A stretch of 42,811 bases of DNA, from NCBI GenBank assembly GCA_028707065.1, contig JAQTUZ010000014.1, positions 1 to 42,811 on the forward strand. Reading direction: 5' to 3'. Shown here piece after piece: positions 4,884-20,071 of this stretch. The notes beneath the pieces are model-generated. The model worked only from the letters and a program-made list of their open reading frames with translations. It did not search any database and was not told the origin of the DNA. Within the stretch, counting starts at the first letter, position 1. Each line of letters begins with the position of its first letter. This stretch comes from Patescibacteria group bacterium. GTDB lineage: Bacteria > Patescibacteriota > Patescibacteriia > Patescibacteriales > WJLG01. The position numbers were made by a program, and so were the translations under genes.

Positions 4884-5738
4884 ATGAATATCCATCAGTT
4901 TTTTAATTTGATCGGCAATAAGAGACAAACCATTGTTTCCCTGCTTATCATTTTTTTGGCCATCGCCATAATTTTTACGGCCGTTCAGCCGTTCAAATAC
5001 GATTCCAACATGAAGCTCCTGACCATCATCAGCTTCAAGCAGGATATCGATCCCTATACGGCTTCCCGCTCCAATGAATACTTGAGCAATCTTTTGGCGA
5101 ACATCGTTTCTTCCGGATCTTTTTTTGAAAAAATAAAGTCGTCCGGTTTTAAGGTTGACAATAATTATTTTCAGGGCAGCGAAAAACAACAGATAAAAAA
5201 ATGGACCAAGACCGTCAAGGCGAAAAGCGTCGCCGACACCGGGATTATTTCCATCGACGTTTTCCATACTGATCGCGCGCAAGCGGAAGAGATCGCCAAG
5301 GCGGTGGCTTACACTTTGCAAACCACTAATTCGCAGTATCACGGTTTTGGCGACGGCGTCACCATCAAGATCATCGATCAGCCGATCACTTCCAATTATC
5401 CGGTTCAGCCGAATCTGCTTTTGAACCTGGGCTTGGCCGTGGCTTTTGCTTTGATCTTTTCTCTTTGCTATGTTTATTTGTTTCCGGAGGAAAAATATAA
5501 TTTGCGCCTTTGGCCGAACAAAGCGAGGAATGTCGACGTTTCTTTTGACGGCGGCCAGGTGATCGAATCTCCCAATGTTTTTGCTCCGGTGATTGCGCCC
5601 GCCTTCGCCGAGGCTACGGCGGACAAGGAGGATGCGGATACCGAATCAGCCGAATATCAAGAACAAGATTTTACCAATGGTTATAATCCTTCCGATTATC
5701 AGGCCAACGGCAACATGAATAATATCTTGAAAAAATAA
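4884..5738 (+). CDS. Wzz-like polysaccharide chain-length/co-polymerase protein
   Basis: Membrane protein of the Wzz/Wzc N-terminal type, which sets chain length in Wzy-dependent polysaccharide assembly. The topology fits: a first membrane helix at about 18-38 (IVSLLIIFLAIAIIF), an extracytoplasmic domain of about 135 residues, the Pro-rich IDQPITSNYPVQPN and a second helix at about 178-200. There is no kinase domain. The cytoplasmic tail (201-284) is low-complexity and acidic, and contains AFAEATADK at residues 240-248, encoded by a repeat-like stretch at 5601-5627. It is the first gene of the envelope locus, with its own promoter (4765) and no SD. Pairing with the O-antigen polymerase/ligase at 9154 supports the role. 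The specific family was assigned by topology and motif only. Confidence 0.8.
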   Translation: MNIHQFFNLIGNKRQTIVSLLIIFLAIAIIFTAVQPFKYDSNMKLLTIISFKQDIDPYTASRSNEYLSNLLANIVSSGSFFEKIKSSGFKVDNNYFQGSEKQQIKKWTKTVKAKSVADTGIISIDVFHTDRAQAEEIAKAVAYTLQTTNSQYHGFGDGVTIKIIDQPITSNYPVQPNLLLNLGLAVAFALIFSLCYVYLFPEEKYNLRLWPNKARNVDVSFDGGQVIESPNVFAPVIAPAFAEATADKEDADTESAEYQEQDFTNGYNPSDYQANGNMNNILKK

Positions 5739-5740
5739 TA

Positions 5741-5845
5741 ATTCGGATGTGCCCCTTTTCGTAGCGGGGCTCCGCCCCTGGCGGATTACATAAAATTCGG
5801 ATGTGCCCCTTTTCGTAGCGGGGCTCCGCCCCTGGCGGATTACAT
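5741..5845. repeat. 51-bp perfect tandem direct repeat
   Basis: Two identical 51-bp units (5741-5791 and 5795-5845) are separated by AAA. Each contains GCCCC...GCGGGGC and GGGGCTCCGCCCC inverted repeats, so each can form a GC-rich hairpin. The exact identity implies a recent duplication. It lies between the wzz-like gene and the first secreted-protein gene. Confidence 0.95.
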
Positions 5846-5893: not shown

Positions 5894-5973
5894 TAGAAAA
5901 TCTAAATGATTTTCAATCAGGAAAGAACATTCACAATTATCCATGCTCTAGTTAGAGCAGAGAGGAGAAAATT

Positions 5974-7833
5974 ATGGAAAGGTATAAAAGCTTTTCCGCG
6001 GTTCTATTTTTGGTGGCGGTGTTTTTCACTGCCAGCGGACAGTGCCCCGACCAGGCTTATATGCCGGGGATGCCGGTTACTATGGGTCCGGGAGGATCCA
6101 TTTGCGAACAGGCCGCAGCGGCGGATATCGATTGCGCGGTGTTCACTAAGTGTCTGGAGAAATTCCAGCACCTCAAGGTTGACCCGCTGCAGGTTAGCGC
6201 CGTTACGCTCAAATTCTATGTTCCCAAGCAAACGGAACAGGATATCGTCAAGAGGGAACTGGGAATGGCCGAGCCAAGGGCAGAGCCGAAAGCGAAGCCG
6301 AAACAATCGGCCAAACCGCCGGTTTCCCGGAAGTGGACAAGGAAGTGCGCTTCCGTAAAAGATCATGACAAGTATCTTATGGAAACCTACTTCTTGCGGC
6401 ACGGAGAGAATATTTTTACCGTCGCCAAGAGGTACAACAAGAATCCCCAAGTTTTGGCTTGGTTCAATTGTTTTTCCAACCCGGAGAGTTTGCGGGAAGG
6501 ACAGTTAGTTGAAATTCCTGATACTAACTTCCGTTTTTGGATCAATGAAGATGCCGCGCCTTACGGATCTCGTCCGCTGGAAGATGCTTTGGCGGATTGT
6601 GATTTTGACGATTCGGTCAAAACTCGCATGTTAGTTCTTATGAACAACAATGCCTATGAGGACGGGTATATTCAAGGCGGGCAGGTCTTAAAGACGATGG
6701 CTTCGGCGCCGCTTAATGTCAATGGAAAAAGGAGAGTCCACACCGAAAGGAATGTGGTGGTCTGTTTTGAAAACGGTGTCGCAAATCATGGGCGGCTGTT
6801 GAAGGTTGGCCGGGGTGACAGTTTGGATATCGGGGCAGTCCCTGATGTCTGTTACAACTTTTCAACCTGGACCGAACTTGCACCTCCGCCGAAACTTCCG
6901 CCAAAAATGGAAAAACCTCCGCTTGATTCAACCCCTACCCCGCCTCCGCCCGAGCCTCCGGCTGAAGCGCCGCCCAGTCATGGTGTTATGCCCCCCACTA
7001 TTAAGGAAAGCCCGGTTTTTAACCGAGATGAGCTGTTCTTATATGGAGGGACATATTTTCCCGTGCCCTATTTGGGCGACGTGCATAATTATTTTGGAGG
7101 CAGACTGGCGTTATTTTTCCCGACGGCAAGAGGCGCGATATTCGCTTGGGGGCCCAATCTTGGCTTTAACAGCTGGAGAGGGGTCGGACCAAGGGATACT
7201 GTGCCGCAATACCATTACGTCGGAATTCGTCCTTGCGGTGGTTTATCTCTCGATTGGCTGACCGAAACGAGCCGGTCTACGATCTATTTGGACTACGCAG
7301 TCCAGATCGATTGGGGATGGGATAGAAATATTCCGTCTCTGAGATATCACGAGCGGCAGATTACCCAGCTCGCTAATCCCAGTTTTGCTTGGATTTGCGC
7401 GCTTGATTCCTACTGGACCAGATGGATAGGACTGTGGGTCGATGGAGCTTTTGACCTTGGTAATGTTGATCATGTCTTTCATCACAAAACCAGTGATGTT
7501 GGCGGTGTCAGCCTGCTAAAAAGTCAAGCGGTGCTTCATAACAAATCAGCGGTTGATCTGGGATTCTATGTTTTTTACTGGGATATTTCCACGGCCAGAA
7601 CTTCCTTAGTTCTTGGTTCGGGCGTCAAAGGCCTGCATTTGTGGGAGGACAACCGGTATGAAGCGGAGATTGATCAGTTGCTGGACATCAATCATTGGCT
7701 CCAATTCGGAATTGGCTATAAGTACACGGCTAATTCCAGTCTTCGTCTGATGAACGGCCCTTCCTTTGTCGGGTATTTCAATCTTTCCGTCCTGGATATC
7801 GGCAAGTATAAGAAGCCGGATTCAGGCTGGTAA
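5974..7833 (+). CDS. Secreted LysM-domain protein with beta-rich C-terminal domain
   Basis: Predicted exported protein of 619 residues. A Sec signal peptide covers about residues 1-22 (SAVLFLVAVFFTASG). A Cys-containing N-terminal region follows, then a LysM module at about 138-185 (YFLRHGENIFTVAKRYNKNP ... LREGQLVEIPD), a module that binds peptidoglycan or other GlcNAc polymers. Residues 300-345 are a Pro-rich linker. The last 260 residues alternate aromatic and polar residues (GGRLALFFP, STIYLDYAVQIDWGW, LQFGIGYKY) and end in Trp, resembling a membrane beta-barrel, which would be surprising in a presumed single-membrane CPR cell. The start is fixed by AGAGGAG seven bases before ATG 5974. 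It heads a cluster of three secreted genes inside the polysaccharide locus. No specific function is assigned. Confidence 0.85.
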   Translation: MERYKSFSAVLFLVAVFFTASGQCPDQAYMPGMPVTMGPGGSICEQAAAADIDCAVFTKCLEKFQHLKVDPLQVSAVTLKFYVPKQTEQDIVKRELGMAEPRAEPKAKPKQSAKPPVSRKWTRKCASVKDHDKYLMETYFLRHGENIFTVAKRYNKNPQVLAWFNCFSNPESLREGQLVEIPDTNFRFWINEDAAPYGSRPLEDALADCDFDDSVKTRMLVLMNNNAYEDGYIQGGQVLKTMASAPLNVNGKRRVHTERNVVVCFENGVANHGRLLKVGRGDSLDIGAVPDVCYNFSTWTELAPPPKLPPKMEKPPLDSTPTPPPPEPPAEAPPSHGVMPPTIKESPVFNRDELFLYGGTYFPVPYLGDVHNYFGGRLALFFPTARGAIFAWGPNLGFNSWRGVGPRDTVPQYHYVGIRPCGGLSLDWLTETSRSTIYLDYAVQIDWGWDRNIPSLRYHERQITQLANPSFAWICALDSYWTRWIGLWVDGAFDLGNVDHVFHHKTSDVGGVSLLKSQAVLHNKSAVDLGFYVFYWDISTARTSLVLGSGVKGLHLWEDNRYEAEIDQLLDINHWLQFGIGYKYTANSSLRLMNGPSFVGYFNLSVLDIGKYKKPDSGW

Positions 7834-7886
7834 GTCGATTGGTTTGAAAATTTTTTTCACAAAAATCACTTTTTCCAGGAGGTAGT

Positions 7887-8345
7887 ATGAAGTTCAGTAT
7901 TTCCGCAGTCGTCGCGATGATCGCGATGTTGGCCGTTTCCGCCATGGCTTTCACCCCGCCCAATAACGACGAGGTCGGAATCACCACGGACGGAATTATT
8001 TTCGTCAAAGCGCTGAGGATAACCCAGCTGAAACCGCAGGTCAATCCGCCCGGCGTTATGTGCGAGCTGATGAAGGATGCCAATCACCATTGGATCACCG
8101 GTCTAAAAACCAAGCGTGATGGCAACTACTTCATCTACGAAACCGGATTTACCGTACCAGCAGGGAAAGAAGTCCAGTTCTGCTTCTATCTCGGGGTCAA
8201 TTTCTGGATGCCCGACTGTTATTATGAAGGGACGTATGCGTCCTTTGGCGCGGAGTATATTTCCGATTGGAAGGAAAATGCTCCTCCAAACGGTCCCGAC
8301 GGCGGCGGACATAATTTCCGATACTCCGCGGTTCAGGCGAAGTAA
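7887..8345 (+). CDS. Small secreted protein, unknown function
   Basis: Not recognised. The protein has 152 residues and a clear signal peptide (VVAMIAMLAVSAMA, cleavage near residue 21). The mature part (about 131 residues) looks beta-rich, with VPAGKEVQFCFYLGVNFW, DCYYEGTYASFGAEYISDW and two well-separated cysteines; an immunoglobulin- or carbohydrate-binding-like sandwich is possible but only a guess. AGGAGG five bases before ATG 7887 gives a strong SD. It follows the LysM gene by 53 bp and probably shares its transcript, which ends at the terminator at 8369. Confidence 0.78.
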   Translation: MKFSISAVVAMIAMLAVSAMAFTPPNNDEVGITTDGIIFVKALRITQLKPQVNPPGVMCELMKDANHHWITGLKTKRDGNYFIYETGFTVPAGKEVQFCFYLGVNFWMPDCYYEGTYASFGAEYISDWKENAPPNGPDGGGHNFRYSAVQAK

Positions 8346-8368
8346 GTAGCGAAGTAAGTAGTCAAGAA

Positions 8369-8411
8369 GGGGGTGCGAAGAGCAAAGCTTTTCGCACCCC
8401 CCAATTTTTTC
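8369..8411 (+). terminator. Strong intrinsic terminator
   Basis: GGGGGTGCGAA (8369-8379) pairs perfectly with TTCGCACCCCC (8391-8401), followed by CAATTTTTT. It closes the transcript of the LysM gene and the 152-residue secreted protein. Confidence 0.93.
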
Positions 8412-8524
8412 CTACAAATGCTGCGAAAAAGACATCTGAATATTTTCAGCGAATACAATTAAGTCCAAAGATAATTTGGCTTTAATCCTGTTCACTGATT
8501 TCCACTTTTACAAGGAGAAAAATC

Positions 8525-9073
8525 ATGAAATTGCTCGCTCTTTTTTTAATCATCATCGCCTTTCCCGTCTTTTCCCGCCCTCACGACACTATCGAGGTTA
8601 AACTTTCCACGCTTGAAAAAGCAAGCAAGGCGGGAATAACCATCTTTAGTTTTAAGTCAGGCGAATGTATCAAGATCATCAGGGATAGTGCTGCCGATGT
8701 GGCCGGTAATGATGTTTGGGGATTGGACGAAAAAGAAAAGATTGGCAAACAAGCAAGTTGTTTGCCCGCAAGGTTCACTCACGGATTTACCCCCCAGGGC
8801 GATTATTCTCTTGCCAAAGAATCGGTTGAACCGGGAGTGATTCCGGAAGTATCTTTTTCCCCATCCTGGGAAAGGCATAAAATGGTCGATGAGGGCCAAT
8901 ATTATGTCTTTCACTCCGGCGAAAAGATATTCGGCCGGCAAGCTTATCGCTTCTTTATCCGGGGGAAGCAGCTGCCCCAGCCGTCGTCGGTAACCCAATG
9001 GGACGATGCGGTAATCGATGATGGCGGAAAATGTTTTTTCTACTCTTTGCCGCTACCGGCGGGATTAAGATAG
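8525..9073 (+). CDS. Secreted protein, unknown function
   Basis: Not recognised. The protein has 182 residues and a signal peptide (LALFLIIIAFPVFS, cleavage near residue 18). The mature domain has three cysteines (GECIK, ASCLPA, KCFFY) and mixed beta-type segments such as GQYYVFHSGEKIFGRQAYRFF. AAGGAG eight bases before ATG 8525 is a good SD. The gene stands between two strong terminators (8369 and 9098), so it is probably a single-gene transcript, although its promoter was not clear (the 110-bp gap before it holds only weak matches). It is the third of three consecutive secreted SD-led genes. Confidence 0.75.
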   Translation: MKLLALFLIIIAFPVFSRPHDTIEVKLSTLEKASKAGITIFSFKSGECIKIIRDSAADVAGNDVWGLDEKEKIGKQASCLPARFTHGFTPQGDYSLAKESVEPGVIPEVSFSPSWERHKMVDEGQYYVFHSGEKIFGRQAYRFFIRGKQLPQPSSVTQWDDAVIDDGGKCFFYSLPLPAGLR

Positions 9074-9097: not shown

Positions 9098-9127
9098 GGG
9101 GGCTTTGTTGAGAAACAAGGCCTCTTT
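9098..9127 (+). terminator. Intrinsic terminator after the secreted-protein cluster
   Basis: GGGGGCTTTGTT pairs with AACAAGGCCTC (with G-T wobbles) across GAGA and is followed by TTTTTTTAT. Confidence 0.88.
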
Positions 9128-9153: not shown

Positions 9154-10554
9154 ATGAATATGGCCGAAAAAATTAAAATACAACCTAATGAAAATCGAGT
9201 TGCCTCCTGGCTGGTTTTGGCGTTTTTGGCGCTCTTATTCATCGCCGCCTGCCTGGCCGCGCCCAGCTATCCTTGGCTGCTGATCGTTTTTTTCGCCGCG
9301 GCGATTTTTTTACTGCTCGCCACCAAGATCGAATACGGCGTTTATTTAATGATTTTCTTTTTGCCGGCGATCAATTGGAATTTCACTTTTCATAGCTTAG
9401 TGATCCCGTTCGTCGATCTGCTTGGCCTCACTGTTTTCACCGCCTTTGTGCTGCGGACCGTTTATCGCCGGCTCTTCGACCGCGCCCGCTTCAGCTTGAG
9501 AATTCCGCTTTTTATCCCATTCATTTTATTTTTTGCCAGCATCACAATCTCAAATTTCCTCTCGGAATATATCAGCGGCAATATTTGGTATTCGATCCGC
9601 TGGATTTTGTTTTTTTATTTGGTTTACGTCACCTTGCCGGTTAACGTCATCAATAATGAAAGGATATTGAAAAATTCCCTGATCAGCTTTATGTTGTCCG
9701 GCTTGACCGTCGCTATGATGGGAGTCGTTTCGCTTTTCCAGCAGGATTGGCAATATACGCTGGTGCGGACTTTGCCGATTCAAATTTTCGGCATTTATCC
9801 TTTGGGCGATAATCATAATTTGGTCGGCGAAGTGCTGATCGTTTCCTTGTTTTTTACGCAGGCGCTTAAATATTGGTCGCGTTCGATCACGGCCACCCGG
9901 CTGTTGAATATTCTGATGATTTTTCAAACTTTGGTTCTACTGGGAACTTTTTCCCGCGCCGCCTGGGTCGCCTTGGGCGTCGGCGTCATTCTTTTTTTGA
10001 TCTTCGCCCAGCGAGCGGCCCGCGGCCAGCTTTTAGTCATTATGGCTTTTTGCCTGATTTTGCTTTCGCCGTTTTCGCTGTATATGTATAAATTGCAGAG
10101 CAATTTTTCCATCGGCGGCACCTCGAACGAAAGCCGCCTGCTGATGACCGAGATCGCCTGGAATAATTTTACGCTCAAGCCGCTTTTCGGCTGGGGGACC
10201 GGGCAGTTTGAGAATATGATGGCCAATGACGTGCGTTTTATCGCTAACTATGGAGCGCCCCTGGATTCGCACGGAGTCTGGCAAAAAGTTTTGGCGGAGA
10301 ACGGCGTATTCGGCGTCGTTACTTTTGCCGGAATTTTTCTTTCAATTGTTATTATTTTTTTCCGCTCGTTAAGAAAATATCGGGCGGAAACAGCATTGCT
10401 TTTGCCGATATTTTTGGGCGGCCTCTGCATGTTTTTGATCCAATTTTTTAATACCTCTTATTATAAGGGCAAGCTTTGGCTGCCGGTCGCGTTGGGATTG
10501 TGCGCGATCAATATTGTGAGGAAAAAATTTCGAGAGGCCAAGAAAAAATCGTAA
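9154..10554 (+). CDS. O-antigen polymerase/ligase-type membrane protein
   Basis: Polytopic membrane protein of 466 residues with about 11-12 hydrophobic segments, of the WaaL/Wzy type (PF04932-like), which polymerises or transfers undecaprenyl-linked glycan outside the membrane. The family features are the FSRAAWVALGVGVILFL segment, the long external loop before it, GWGTGQFENMM and the nearby HGVWQKVLAENGVFGVV. ATG 9154 (with ATG 9160 two codons later) has no SD and follows the terminator at 9098 closely, so its promoter must be short or lie in the terminator region. Neighbours Wzz and glycosyltransferases support a polysaccharide assembly role. Whether it is a polymerase or a ligase cannot be told. 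Confidence 0.85.
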   Translation: MNMAEKIKIQPNENRVASWLVLAFLALLFIAACLAAPSYPWLLIVFFAAAIFLLLATKIEYGVYLMIFFLPAINWNFTFHSLVIPFVDLLGLTVFTAFVLRTVYRRLFDRARFSLRIPLFIPFILFFASITISNFLSEYISGNIWYSIRWILFFYLVYVTLPVNVINNERILKNSLISFMLSGLTVAMMGVVSLFQQDWQYTLVRTLPIQIFGIYPLGDNHNLVGEVLIVSLFFTQALKYWSRSITATRLLNILMIFQTLVLLGTFSRAAWVALGVGVILFLIFAQRAARGQLLVIMAFCLILLSPFSLYMYKLQSNFSIGGTSNESRLLMTEIAWNNFTLKPLFGWGTGQFENMMANDVRFIANYGAPLDSHGVWQKVLAENGVFGVVTFAGIFLSIVIIFFRSLRKYRAETALLLPIFLGGLCMFLIQFFNTSYYKGKLWLPVALGLCAINIVRKKFREAKKKS

Positions 10555-16671: not shown

Positions 16672-17856
16672 ATGAAGATTGCAATCATTGGACAAAAAGG
16701 TATCCCGAGCATTTCGGGAGGAGTGGAAAAACACGTGGAAGATTTATCAATCCGCCTGGTTAAGGCCGGCCATGAAGTTTTCGTTTACACCCGTCCGAAT
16801 TATACCGATAAGAATCTGCAGGAATATCAAGGCGTCAAGTTGATTTCCTTGCCTTCCGTCGCCACCAAACATTTGGACGCGATCACTCACACCTTTCGCG
16901 CCTGTTTGGACGTGGCCAAACGCGACGTGGACGTCATCCATTTCCATTCCATCGGGCCGTCTTCGCTGATCTGGCTGGTAAAAATGTTGAAGCCGGGCGT
17001 GCCGGTCGTCGCCACTTTTCATTCCCAATGCTACAAGCATCAGAAATGGGGGATCTTTGCCAAGGCTTATTTGAAATTCGGCGAATTCATCGCTTGCCGC
17101 CTGGCTGATAGAACCATCACGGTTTCCAAGAATCTCAAGGAATACACCATCAAGAAATATGGCCGCGTTCCCGAATACATTCCCAACGGCGTCGAGGCCG
17201 GCAAAAAAACGGCCGCCCACGATATCAAATATTTCGGCTTGAAGAAAGACAATTATATTTTGGCTTTGGGCCGCATCATTAAGCACAAGGGTTTGCAATA
17301 TTTAATTAAAGCGTTCAAGAACGTGAAGACCGATAAAAAATTGGTGATCGTCGGCGGCAGCGCCCATACCGATAAGTTCGTCAAAGAGCTTAAGGATTTG
17401 GCGCGCGGCGACAAGCGCATCATTTTTACCGGTCCGCAGCATGGGCCGATCGTTCCGGAATTGTTTGCCAACGCCTATCTTTTCGTCCAACCGTCCGAAT
17501 CGGAAGGTTTGTCGATCGCGCTGCTGGAAGCGATGGCGCACGGCACTGCCACGCTGGTTTCGGATATTCCGGAAAATCGCGAAGCGATCTCTTATACCGG
17601 CTATACTTTCAAGAGCAAGAACGTCGCTGATCTGATGGGCAAGCTGAACGGCCTGTTGCGCAATCCCGAGATTGTCCGCGAGATGGGCGAGATGCAGAGA
17701 AAAAGGGCCGCCAGCGAATACAATTGGGAAAAAGTTTCTGATAAAGTCCAGAATGTTTATCGTTCCGTGGCTTTTCCGCAAAAGGCGGCGGGCAAATCCG
17801 CTCAAGGCGTGCGCAAATTGAAATTCGCGCAGAGGTTTTTGAATTTATTCTTTTAA
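16672..17856 (+). CDS. GT4-family glycosyltransferase
   Basis: GT-B glycosyltransferase of 394 residues, of the type with the N-terminus IAIIGQKGIPSISGGVEKHV (rhamnosyltransferase-like families begin this way). HFHSIGPSSLIWL, TFHSQCYKHQKWG and YIPNGVEAG follow; the second domain starts YILALGRIIKHKGLQYLI and includes PSESEGLSIALLEAMAHG, a normal E-x7-E donor site. The tail is basic (KLKFAQRFLNLFF) and may touch the membrane. Function: adds a sugar, perhaps the first or a branching residue, to the lipid-linked glycan; the sugar is not known. No SD. It closes the first polysaccharide locus. Confidence 0.93.
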   Translation: MKIAIIGQKGIPSISGGVEKHVEDLSIRLVKAGHEVFVYTRPNYTDKNLQEYQGVKLISLPSVATKHLDAITHTFRACLDVAKRDVDVIHFHSIGPSSLIWLVKMLKPGVPVVATFHSQCYKHQKWGIFAKAYLKFGEFIACRLADRTITVSKNLKEYTIKKYGRVPEYIPNGVEAGKKTAAHDIKYFGLKKDNYILALGRIIKHKGLQYLIKAFKNVKTDKKLVIVGGSAHTDKFVKELKDLARGDKRIIFTGPQHGPIVPELFANAYLFVQPSESEGLSIALLEAMAHGTATLVSDIPENREAISYTGYTFKSKNVADLMGKLNGLLRNPEIVREMGEMQRKRAASEYNWEKVSDKVQNVYRSVAFPQKAAGKSAQGVRKLKFAQRFLNLFF

Positions 17857-18046: not shown

Positions 18047-20071
18047 ATGAAAAGGACTGTGTGTTTGTGGTTGATGACAGTGTTGGTGGCAGCCGGTTTT
18101 TTCGGCTGTCAGGACAATCCGGCGAGTCTTCCGACCCCCGGATCAACGGACACAATCGATGTTTCAGTGCCGATCTTCGGCCTGGTCAGTTCAAGCCAGG
18201 TCAGTGACAGCATCTGGACTTATGAGATCGCTCTTAAGGCCAGCGCTTATCAGCCGGCAGCCACCAACGCCGTAATGTTCGGCGCTCTTGGCACCAACTG
18301 GAATCTTTTGAGCAATGCCACGAATGGCGTGCTTTCCGGCGGTGCCTGGAATTTCACTTTTACGGTGAAAAACGGTCCGCGGCTGGTAAATTTTTCGAGC
18401 AAGACCGGGAACTGGGCCCAGCTTGACAGTCTGAAGAAATGCGATTTCTATCAGGCATCGAGCAAGGGCGGCGACTTGGCCATCGATTTTGAAAATGGCC
18501 AATTGCTGCACACCAGCAATGTCGTGACGATCCATACCGTTGACACGATGTATATCGTGAAGACGATCGTGGTCGATAGCATTCTCCGCGTCCGTGATAC
18601 GGTCATTGATACTGTGTGGTCAAACCGTCAGATTCATGATTCGATCCACACCGTGGACACCGTTCGCGTGCCGTCAAAGACCGACACTGTTATGCTTGGC
18701 GATCTTGTCAAGCAGGTGGGCAATGTCGATCTGGGCAATGGCTCGTTCAGAACCACTTTGATTTTCAGTCCGCTTCTGGTTAAGAAGAATGCCACTGCCA
18801 ACTGGGTTCCGTTCGGCGCGGGGTTCCCGCCCTATTACAGCTGGAACAAGGATTCAGTTATGGCGCTGGGACAACAGCGGCCAGATGGCTACTACCCACT
18901 GACCTATGTTTCGAAGCCGGGTTTCTTGACCTGTGACGTTGGCGGCGATTACAATCATGCCTGGGCCAATGACAGTCTGCTCGCGAAAGCGCCCTGGGGT
19001 TTCAAAACCCCGACCGGGTATGTCATTCGGCTGTACGAGAATAAAGCCGGTTGGGTTTTTCCCGCCAGTCTCGTGTATGTCGATACGACCACCAAGGTGG
19101 TGCATGACACGACGGTAAGGGTTGATACGGTAAAAACGCCGCAGAAGATTGTGTGGATTATCGATAGCGTTTTTACCATCAGAACCCAGCATGATACGAC
19201 CGTCATTCGTACCCACGATACGGTTACCGTGATGACGATCAGGATCGTTAAGGATACGGTGCAACTGCCGGGAAAGATCGCCTACATCACAGATACGTTG
19301 AGGATCTATTACGTCACCCATGATACGGTCAGAACAAAGCCGGATACGGTGTTTGTTCCCATTCATGTTTATGACACAACGTTCGTGATCAGGGTAATTC
19401 CTCCCGATACGGTTTTCCTGCCCGGGAGGATTATAATCGTCCATGACACTCTCAAGCAGGTTAACACCGACACGATCCACGTGAAAGACACGGTCGTCTT
19501 TACGGCGGTGGATAAGGGGGTGGCGGTTGACAGCTCCAAAAACTTCCTGCGCGATACCTCGTGGTTGGAATCCAACCATTTAAAAGGTGTGGTGACGGAA
19601 GATACAGTGGTGACGACCAGAGCGATTCATTCGGTGCTCTGGATATCGCCCAAGGGAGATTCAACCGTTAAGCGCGACACAGCCTCGTCCACGAAGATCT
19701 ATCAGTACCGGGCGGACACTATTTCTTTGGTGATCGCTCAATACGGCAGTAGCGTGGTCGGCGCCGATACGATCTATCGGTTCGGCGTGACTGTCAAGGC
19801 CTTTGCTTATTCCGGCAAGGGCGACGATTCCGCGAGCCTCACCGGTTTGGCGGACACGAGCAAATGGAAATTTGTCGGCAAGATCGGAGGGTATTTCGTC
19901 TTTGACGCCAAGTTGATTGGCGGGACGACCTACAACTTCAATTTTGTCGGCAATAAAGGGACCTGGGCCCAGCAGGAAATACTTCTGCTTAGTCCCTTGG
20001 CCGTCAAGACCGGAGGCAATTGCGATATTGTCTCTCGAGCGGTCTACGGCACCGGCCTAGTAAAACCGTAA
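18047..20071 (+). CDS. Large lipoprotein with HDT-repeat stalk and duplicated end domains
   Basis: Predicted surface lipoprotein of 674 residues. The signal sequence ends VLVAAGFFG followed by Cys21; the box is near-canonical (Phe at -3 is unusual). Residues about 30-160 and 555-670 are related: compare LKASAY with VKAFAY, and NFSSKTGNWAQL with NFVGNKGTWAQQ. Between them, at 160-225 and 345-490, runs a stalk of short degenerate repeats built on HDT or VDT with V/I neighbours (VRDTVIDTV, TIHVKDTVVF and so on), typical of extended beta surface stalks. A middle domain (about 225-345, YYSWNKDSVMALGQQ, GYVIRLYENKAGWVFPA) splits the stalk. GGGAGG at 18035-18045 gives a strong SD. A strong terminator follows. 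Function unknown; adhesion or presentation of a ligand is a hypothesis. Confidence 0.85.
   Translation: MKRTVCLWLMTVLVAAGFFGCQDNPASLPTPGSTDTIDVSVPIFGLVSSSQVSDSIWTYEIALKASAYQPAATNAVMFGALGTNWNLLSNATNGVLSGGAWNFTFTVKNGPRLVNFSSKTGNWAQLDSLKKCDFYQASSKGGDLAIDFENGQLLHTSNVVTIHTVDTMYIVKTIVVDSILRVRDTVIDTVWSNRQIHDSIHTVDTVRVPSKTDTVMLGDLVKQVGNVDLGNGSFRTTLIFSPLLVKKNATANWVPFGAGFPPYYSWNKDSVMALGQQRPDGYYPLTYVSKPGFLTCDVGGDYNHAWANDSLLAKAPWGFKTPTGYVIRLYENKAGWVFPASLVYVDTTTKVVHDTTVRVDTVKTPQKIVWIIDSVFTIRTQHDTTVIRTHDTVTVMTIRIVKDTVQLPGKIAYITDTLRIYYVTHDTVRTKPDTVFVPIHVYDTTFVIRVIPPDTVFLPGRIIIVHDTLKQVNTDTIHVKDTVVFTAVDKGVAVDSSKNFLRDTSWLESNHLKGVVTEDTVVTTRAIHSVLWISPKGDSTVKRDTASSTKIYQYRADTISLVIAQYGSSVVGADTIYRFGVTVKAFAYSGKGDDSASLTGLADTSKWKFVGKIGGYFVFDAKLIGGTTYNFNFVGNKGTWAQQEILLLSPLAVKTGGNCDIVSRAVYGTGLVKP

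Follow-up and report, generated by a model that had tools for sequence, protein, structure and literature searches.

Capsule and O-antigen loci of the Wzx/Wzy type are built around a Wzz/Wzc co-polymerase and a Wzy polymerase, and capsule loci include Wza. Synthase-dependent exporters, such as BcsC, AlgE, and PelB/PelA, combine an outer-membrane barrel with a glycosidase. OmpA/OprF proteins join a wall-binding part to a barrel, and the wall proteins SafA and LytE carry LysM domains. A 42,811-nucleotide stretch from a Patescibacteria group bacterium (contig JAQTUZ010000014.1, assembly GCA_028707065.1; hereafter the window) resembles each of these in part. Between a wzz-like gene and a Wzy_C polymerase gene lies an island of three genes for exported proteins of 619, 152, and 182 residues (P0001, P0002, and P0003). 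This arrangement is one instance of a cluster that recurs across the order: wzz, an OmpA-like gene and a lipoprotein gene (each sometimes present), the LysM/beta gene (for the 619-residue protein and its relatives), small exported proteins, and wzy. Most of its surface genes are led by strong Shine-Dalgarno (SD) sequences, whereas wzz and wzy almost never are; this contrast is new here.

Like the Wzx/Wzy loci, the window holds a wzz-like co-polymerase gene, a Wzy_C polymerase gene, and glycosyltransferases in one locus. Unlike them, none of the 19 genomes that carry the LysM/beta gene encodes an OPX outer-membrane exporter (Wza, PF02563), and wall binders with LysM or OmpA-like domains are found in the locus instead. 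As in the synthase-dependent exporters, the locus of some members pairs a glycosidase (GHL15) with an exported protein that is barrel-like; however, the domain is barrel-like by sequence only, Omp85 is lacking, LysM replaces tetratricopeptide repeats, and the polymerase is of the Wzy type. As in OmpA/OprF, a wall-binding part is joined to a barrel-like part, and in relatives the cluster includes an OmpA-like gene of its own; but here the wall binder is LysM and N-terminal, and the beta domain has no significant OprF profile match (E 0.6). The resemblance to SafA and LytE is confined to LysM, as the middle and C-terminal domains of the 619-residue protein have no above-threshold match in Pfam, NCBIfam, or the Protein Data Bank (PDB).

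The location between wzz and polymerase genes, read from the sequence in a preliminary description of the window, is borne out. The Wzy_C/O-antigen ligase match in Pfam (9.5e-16) is over its cut-off; the wzz label itself rests on matches below curated cut-offs (NCBIfam TIGR01006, E 1.2e-6, far under; Pfam GNVR, 5.5e-4, likewise under). The three reading frames on the plus strand also stand as described: all begin with a hydrophobic stretch, and 5-7 bases matching the SD sequence precede each ATG by a few nucleotides.

How general is the arrangement? All three genomes of its family, its own counted, encode a relative of the 619-residue protein. A profile of nine members, with LysM left out, matched 19 of the 111 order genomes at E<=0.001, again including its own. 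An even draw across the phylum gave matches in three of 379 genomes: one is its own, and two are weak and cover the middle domain only. The surroundings in all 19 carriers were scanned with models built for this analysis. A wzz gene stands beside the LysM/beta gene in 16/19 and a wzy gene nearby in 14/19; a lipoprotein of about 340 residues occurs in nine, an OmpA-like protein in nine (weakly in G017), and a GHL15 glycosidase in seven. Two of three OmpA-like cluster proteins scanned exceed the Pfam cut-off for OmpA (PF00691). These repeated neighbours make the window one example of a recurring cluster. The preliminary description had considered that the three genes might prove widespread and of known function; they are widespread within the order, and their function is not known.

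The LysM/beta proteins share a recurring layout: a signal; LysM (one or two copies, sometimes lost); a middle domain with a C-x-N-W end; a Pro-rich linker; and a beta domain. The Pro-rich linker and terminal Trp noted earlier are both present in the window's protein. Its LysM domain is weak when the protein is taken alone, with no Pfam LysM match at E<=1 and a LysM protein (4uz2, E 0.0035) as top PDB match. It is clear in the relatives, where five of six scanned match Pfam LysM at 1.6e-10 to 1.8e-19 over the same aligned region; a second set gave a LysM match in 7/18 rows, ten of the 18 being without the N-terminal part. LysM was the sole good family match in the Pfam scan of relatives, and a middle-domain profile found no PDB match. 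The anchoring to peptidoglycan proposed earlier thus gains support through the relatives, and the 619-residue protein itself would bind the wall likewise. The middle domain occurs alone in an exported 347-residue protein from a distant family of the phylum (G447, L041:955-1995, minus strand), and so may be more widely distributed than the beta domain.

P0002 and P0003 probably have a domain in common. The same domain was seen in G002 and G016, in proteins encoded next to the LysM/beta gene, and twice in a G030 protein beside wzz. Against a model of these four domains, P0002 scores 11.7 bits and P0003 11.6 bits, above all of 4000 shuffles. Eight further small exported proteins were compared with the model, and only that of G015 comes near (7.4 bits, 2/4000 shuffles). 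An alignment of 13 small exported proteins proved too diverse; relatedness is limited to a subset. A resemblance to glycogen-binding CBM48 domains, judged by eye, was also dropped: for the two window domains Pfam gave nothing at E<=10, and the best PDB match (E 0.38) is an unrelated protein. The G030 protein (L034:14834-15901, minus strand) is exported and ends in a Por_Secre_tail/FlgD_ig-like C-terminus. To our knowledge, such a C-terminus is unexpected outside the Bacteroidota.

Start sites in and around the cluster fall into two classes. One rule was applied to all genes: the best start within the first 25 codons, and an SD match of at least five bases. By this rule SD sequences lead 15/19 LysM/beta genes, 7/8 OmpA-like genes, and 7/9 lipoprotein genes (together 29/36), versus 1/16 wzz and 0/12 wzy genes (together 1/28; Fisher p 1.6e-10, with genes taken as independent). 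The weak OmpA-like gene of G017 and the cut wzy genes of G002 and G022 were set aside before the count and tallied with the exported-looking open reading frames (ORFs) near the cluster (SD 6, 0, and 0). Those ORFs are SD-led in 17/26 cases, other ORFs in 16/143, and internal control stretches in 6/241. None of eight GHL15 glycosidases is SD-led although several are exported by their N-termini, so export alone does not set SD use.

The contrast may extend beyond the cluster. In 203 kb of the window's own genome, SD sequences lead 24 of the 174 ORFs; by a crude predictor, 10/24 of these look exported, versus 25/150 of the others (p 0.01). In the 18 relatives' stretches, which were chosen around this locus, the corresponding fractions are 40/56 and 27/150. 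Ten SD-led ORFs hand-picked from 16 on a sampled contig include one over a Pfam cut-off, versus seven of ten ORFs drawn at random from the 99 others. That one is a type IV secretion system (T4SS) pilin (PF18895, 1.8e-10; L092:14471-14854, minus strand, contig C1 of the same genome), and contact machinery may thus belong to the SD-led class. Further SD-led exported proteins of this genome have weak CBM9, Big_5, and Por_Secre_tail matches. Jha et al. are said to have described, in 2021, sequestration of the anti-SD sequence in the Bacteroidota. The likeness is that most genes lack an SD and a few keep a strong one; the difference is that the SD-led genes here lean to surface and exported proteins, and that the pattern is known from sequence rather than from ribosomes. 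An anti-SD pattern in 16S RNA was not found in this assembly. Among the titles and abstract openings covered, a partial sample of the literature on SD use in Patescibacteria and the candidate phyla radiation (CPR), no description of such a contrast was found.

The island genes change fast. When the genus's two genomes are compared, identity is 94% for atpD, 89% for atpC, 84% for the glycosyltransferase at 16672, and 80% for wzz, versus 28% for the LysM/beta protein, 25% for wzy (which lies in opposite orientation in the two), and 24-31% for the nearest small proteins. Across 15 genomes, mean identity is 22% for the LysM/beta protein and 43% for wzz, and the distances of the two are correlated (r 0.69, 0/5000 permutations; r 0.56 and 11/5000 in ten genomes thinned to one per close group). 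These comparisons leave out G027, where the end of a contig truncates the LysM/beta gene. That LysM/beta distances track those of wzz favours long residence with fast change over recent arrival.

The reading favoured here, which could equally well prove wrong, is that the three genes belong to a Wzy-type polysaccharide locus as its surface module, one that is anchored to peptidoglycan and diversifies fast. What is observed is the order of the genes, their domain layout, their divergence, and the SD marking; export, wall binding by the 619-residue protein, and contact with the polymer are inferred. The beta alternation of the aligned C-terminal domains, given below, also counts in favour of this reading. 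The 619-residue protein would be exported and docked on peptidoglycan through LysM, its Pro-rich arm holding the barrel-like beta domain at the wall or beyond. The two smaller proteins, also exported and with their one common domain, would work with it. In relatives, the lipoprotein and the OmpA-like wall binder would fill in the remaining links between membrane (Wzz, lipoprotein) and wall (LysM, OmpA-like). The likeliest task of such a module would be to anchor the completed polymer or guide it to the cell surface, and it would diversify fast because the polymer does. The surface-assembly role suggested earlier fits both the LysM anchoring seen through relatives and the polysaccharide-locus location.

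Several observations weigh against this module. Three of the 19 carriers have no wzz beside the gene: G003, where the gene lies on a 4.4-kb contig with neither wzz nor wzy; G019, where the contig ends just upstream; and G086, where the beta domain stands alone and both genes are absent over 17 kb. The small proteins of the nearest genome are not clear homologues of the window's. Structure prediction, proposed earlier for the C-terminal domain, gave no confident fold: AlphaFold models from three- and two-sequence inputs both fell below 30 in mean predicted local distance difference test score (29.9 and 27.3). Finally, 11 genomes show a correlation of the beta domain with wzy beyond wzz (partial r 0.63), yet this value drops to 0.26 (234/3000 permutations) once a close trio is thinned to one. 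With this loss, polymer matching is not established, and no match of beta domain to polymerase type is claimed.

The C-terminal domain might instead be a true membrane-spanning beta-barrel, a polymer exit pore in an outer layer belonging to the cell itself or in a host outer membrane; we consider this unlikely. One paper (PMC12102498) has it that Patescibacteria cells are proposed to lack an outer membrane. The domain is an exported beta domain of barrel-like composition: phenylalanine, tryptophan, and tyrosine (F, W, Y) make up 13.5% and glycine 11.7% (mean of 18), close to 15 E. coli outer-membrane barrels (14.8 and 11.2) and unlike 25 exported soluble proteins (8.0 and 8.3). Column-averaged hydropathy of the 18 aligned domains alternates, with a lag-2 correlation of 0.22 (0/5000 shuffles as high) and 86 columns in alternating runs versus 19 expected, and the same test finds no alternation in the middle domain; these tests cannot separate a membrane barrel from extended beta domains of other kinds. 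An OmpA-like partner and a stand-alone version also speak for a pore. The latter, an exported barrel-like protein of 277 residues (G086, L060:1261-2091, minus strand), ends in GGVMISFTAL and has no Pfam or NCBIfam match.

Other results speak against a pore. Amphipathicity of single sequences does not distinguish the family (mean z 1.0) from soluble proteins (0.81; barrels, 1.95; the window's domain, -0.6) and was dropped as a barrel test, which the true barrels LamB and PldA also fail. None of the 18 C-termini, read by eye, ends on a beta-signal strand; the aromatic ends KKFF (G030) and PDSGW (G000) each follow a polar tail. PDB profile searches with the domain found no match, and the sole barrel-like hit, OprF 4rlc at E 0.6 with a mixed profile, vanished with a barrel-only profile. 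BamA/Omp85 was absent over cut-off from the window's own genome and from all 111 genomes of the order, where a single sub-cut-off fragment appeared. One OPX domain (Poly_export; G088) and secretin domains in four genomes (G005, G008, G090, and G091) lie outside the 19 carriers, and could be prophage or contamination. The outer-membrane barrel of the preliminary description is therefore upheld as a barrel-like sequence character, in beta alternation and composition, with a barrel fold no more than a possibility; the outer membrane itself finds no backing in Omp85 or in a terminal beta-signal.

An adhesin or host-contact module is similarly doubtful. LysM would then hold the protein on the wall of the cell that makes it, binding to a partner cell would fall to the small proteins and the variable beta domain, and the polysaccharide genes would be mere neighbours. 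The divergence from wzz between congeneric genomes is what such a module might show, and the company of other SD-led genes (the pilin and the exported proteins with weak matches) points the same way. However, placement beside wzz and near wzy across genera exceeds what a free adhesin would lead one to expect, and no adhesin domain was recognised in the proteins.

Recent horizontal acquisition from an outer-membrane bacterium, an origin entertained earlier, is very improbable. In its favour, SD use and the OmpA/barrel flavour are unlike the surrounding genes, and codon use deviates in two of the three (z 5.9 and 4.0), but native atpD (8.3) and dnaB (4.3) deviate too. Against it, guanine-plus-cytosine content (0.48-0.52) is inside the neighbours' range, the position is the same across the order, and distances follow wzz. 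Foreign composition was accordingly set aside. A phage or plasmid origin is likewise unsupported. P0001 has no relative among phages and matches weak families only in PHROGs (best E 0.0073); its searches of genome-contig and viral-contig collections, and that of viral contigs with the G030 relative, returned nothing useful. The G030 relative matched 106 plasmid records, of which the best eight cover the LysM end only.

The features are listed below. The source genome (42 contigs totalling 1.5 Mb, with 95% completeness and 4.8% contamination) has as closest named records 'Patescibacteria group bacterium' STD1_31 and 'Candidatus Falkowbacteria' Bin_529, which supports the CPR affiliation of the cell. 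In order, the window contains F-ATPase genes, the wzz-like gene, the three ORFs, the Wzy_C gene, glycosyltransferases, and cell-wall and division genes, with mraZ, mraW, ftsI, and murF among the last (assigned by reading translations).

Features of the island and its borders (window coordinates)
Feature	Position	Strand	Remark
wzz-like chain-length determinant, polysaccharide co-polymerase-like	4884..5738	+	Left island border; without SD
Two 31-bp GC-rich palindromic elements	5760-5790, 5814-5844	+	Identical, 54 bp apart; between wzz and island
SD AGGAG of 619-residue gene	5963..5967	+	
619-residue exported protein (P0001)	5974..7833	+	Signal peptide, LysM, middle domain, Pro-rich linker, C-terminal beta domain
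LysM domain	6379..6522	+	Residues about 136-183
Middle domain	6526..6873	+	Residues about 185-300; C-x-N-W ending kept in most relatives
Pro-rich linker	6880..7008	+	Residues about 303-345
C-terminal barrel-like beta domain	7024..7806	+	Residues about 351-611
SD AGGAGGT of 152-residue gene	7877..7883	+	
152-residue exported protein (P0002)	7887..8345	+	Small domain, probably in common with 182-residue protein
Terminator-like hairpin, 15 pairs	8369..8401	+	3' of 152-residue gene
SD AAGGAG of 182-residue gene	8512..8517	+	
182-residue exported protein (P0003)	8525..9073	+	Probably same small domain in C-terminal half, 8768-9070
Terminator-like hairpin, 12 pairs	9098..9125	+	3' of 182-residue gene
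Wzy_C/O-antigen ligase-like polymerase	9154..10554	+	Right island border; without SD

The two hairpins suggest that the 619- and 152-residue genes may form one unit and the 182-residue gene another. Further exact copies of the 31-bp palindromic element were found neither in the window nor in the 95 loci searched, apart from overlaps of the same place. Elsewhere in the window, 18047-20071 (plus strand) encodes a 674-residue lipoprotein-like protein with long DT-rich repeat runs and a strong SD; it has no Pfam match over cut-off and none in NCBIfam. A neighbouring stretch of G001 (L006 2-685) also encodes an SD-led lipoprotein.

Little is known of the ways in which Patescibacteria construct and diversify their surface and make contact with hosts, and the cluster supplies a defined, order-wide gene set with a new LysM/beta-domain protein. 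The SD contrast is a sequence signature for picking surface genes of unknown function from such genomes, and raises a direct question about translational control. A bolder proposal, improbable as it stands, is that the order has a separate translation class of surface genes, with a switch in the anti-SD or ribosome, together with a polysaccharide device of a new kind, anchored to the wall and bearing a barrel, that works in the cells' own outer layer or in the host's outer membrane. If so, housekeeping genes would start without SD, and the exported, fast-evolving surface genes (the barrel module and apparently the T4SS pilin) would carry strong ones; cells thought to have a single membrane would possess a wall-anchored barrel device; and a changed ribosome or anti-SD state could switch the entire surface programme.

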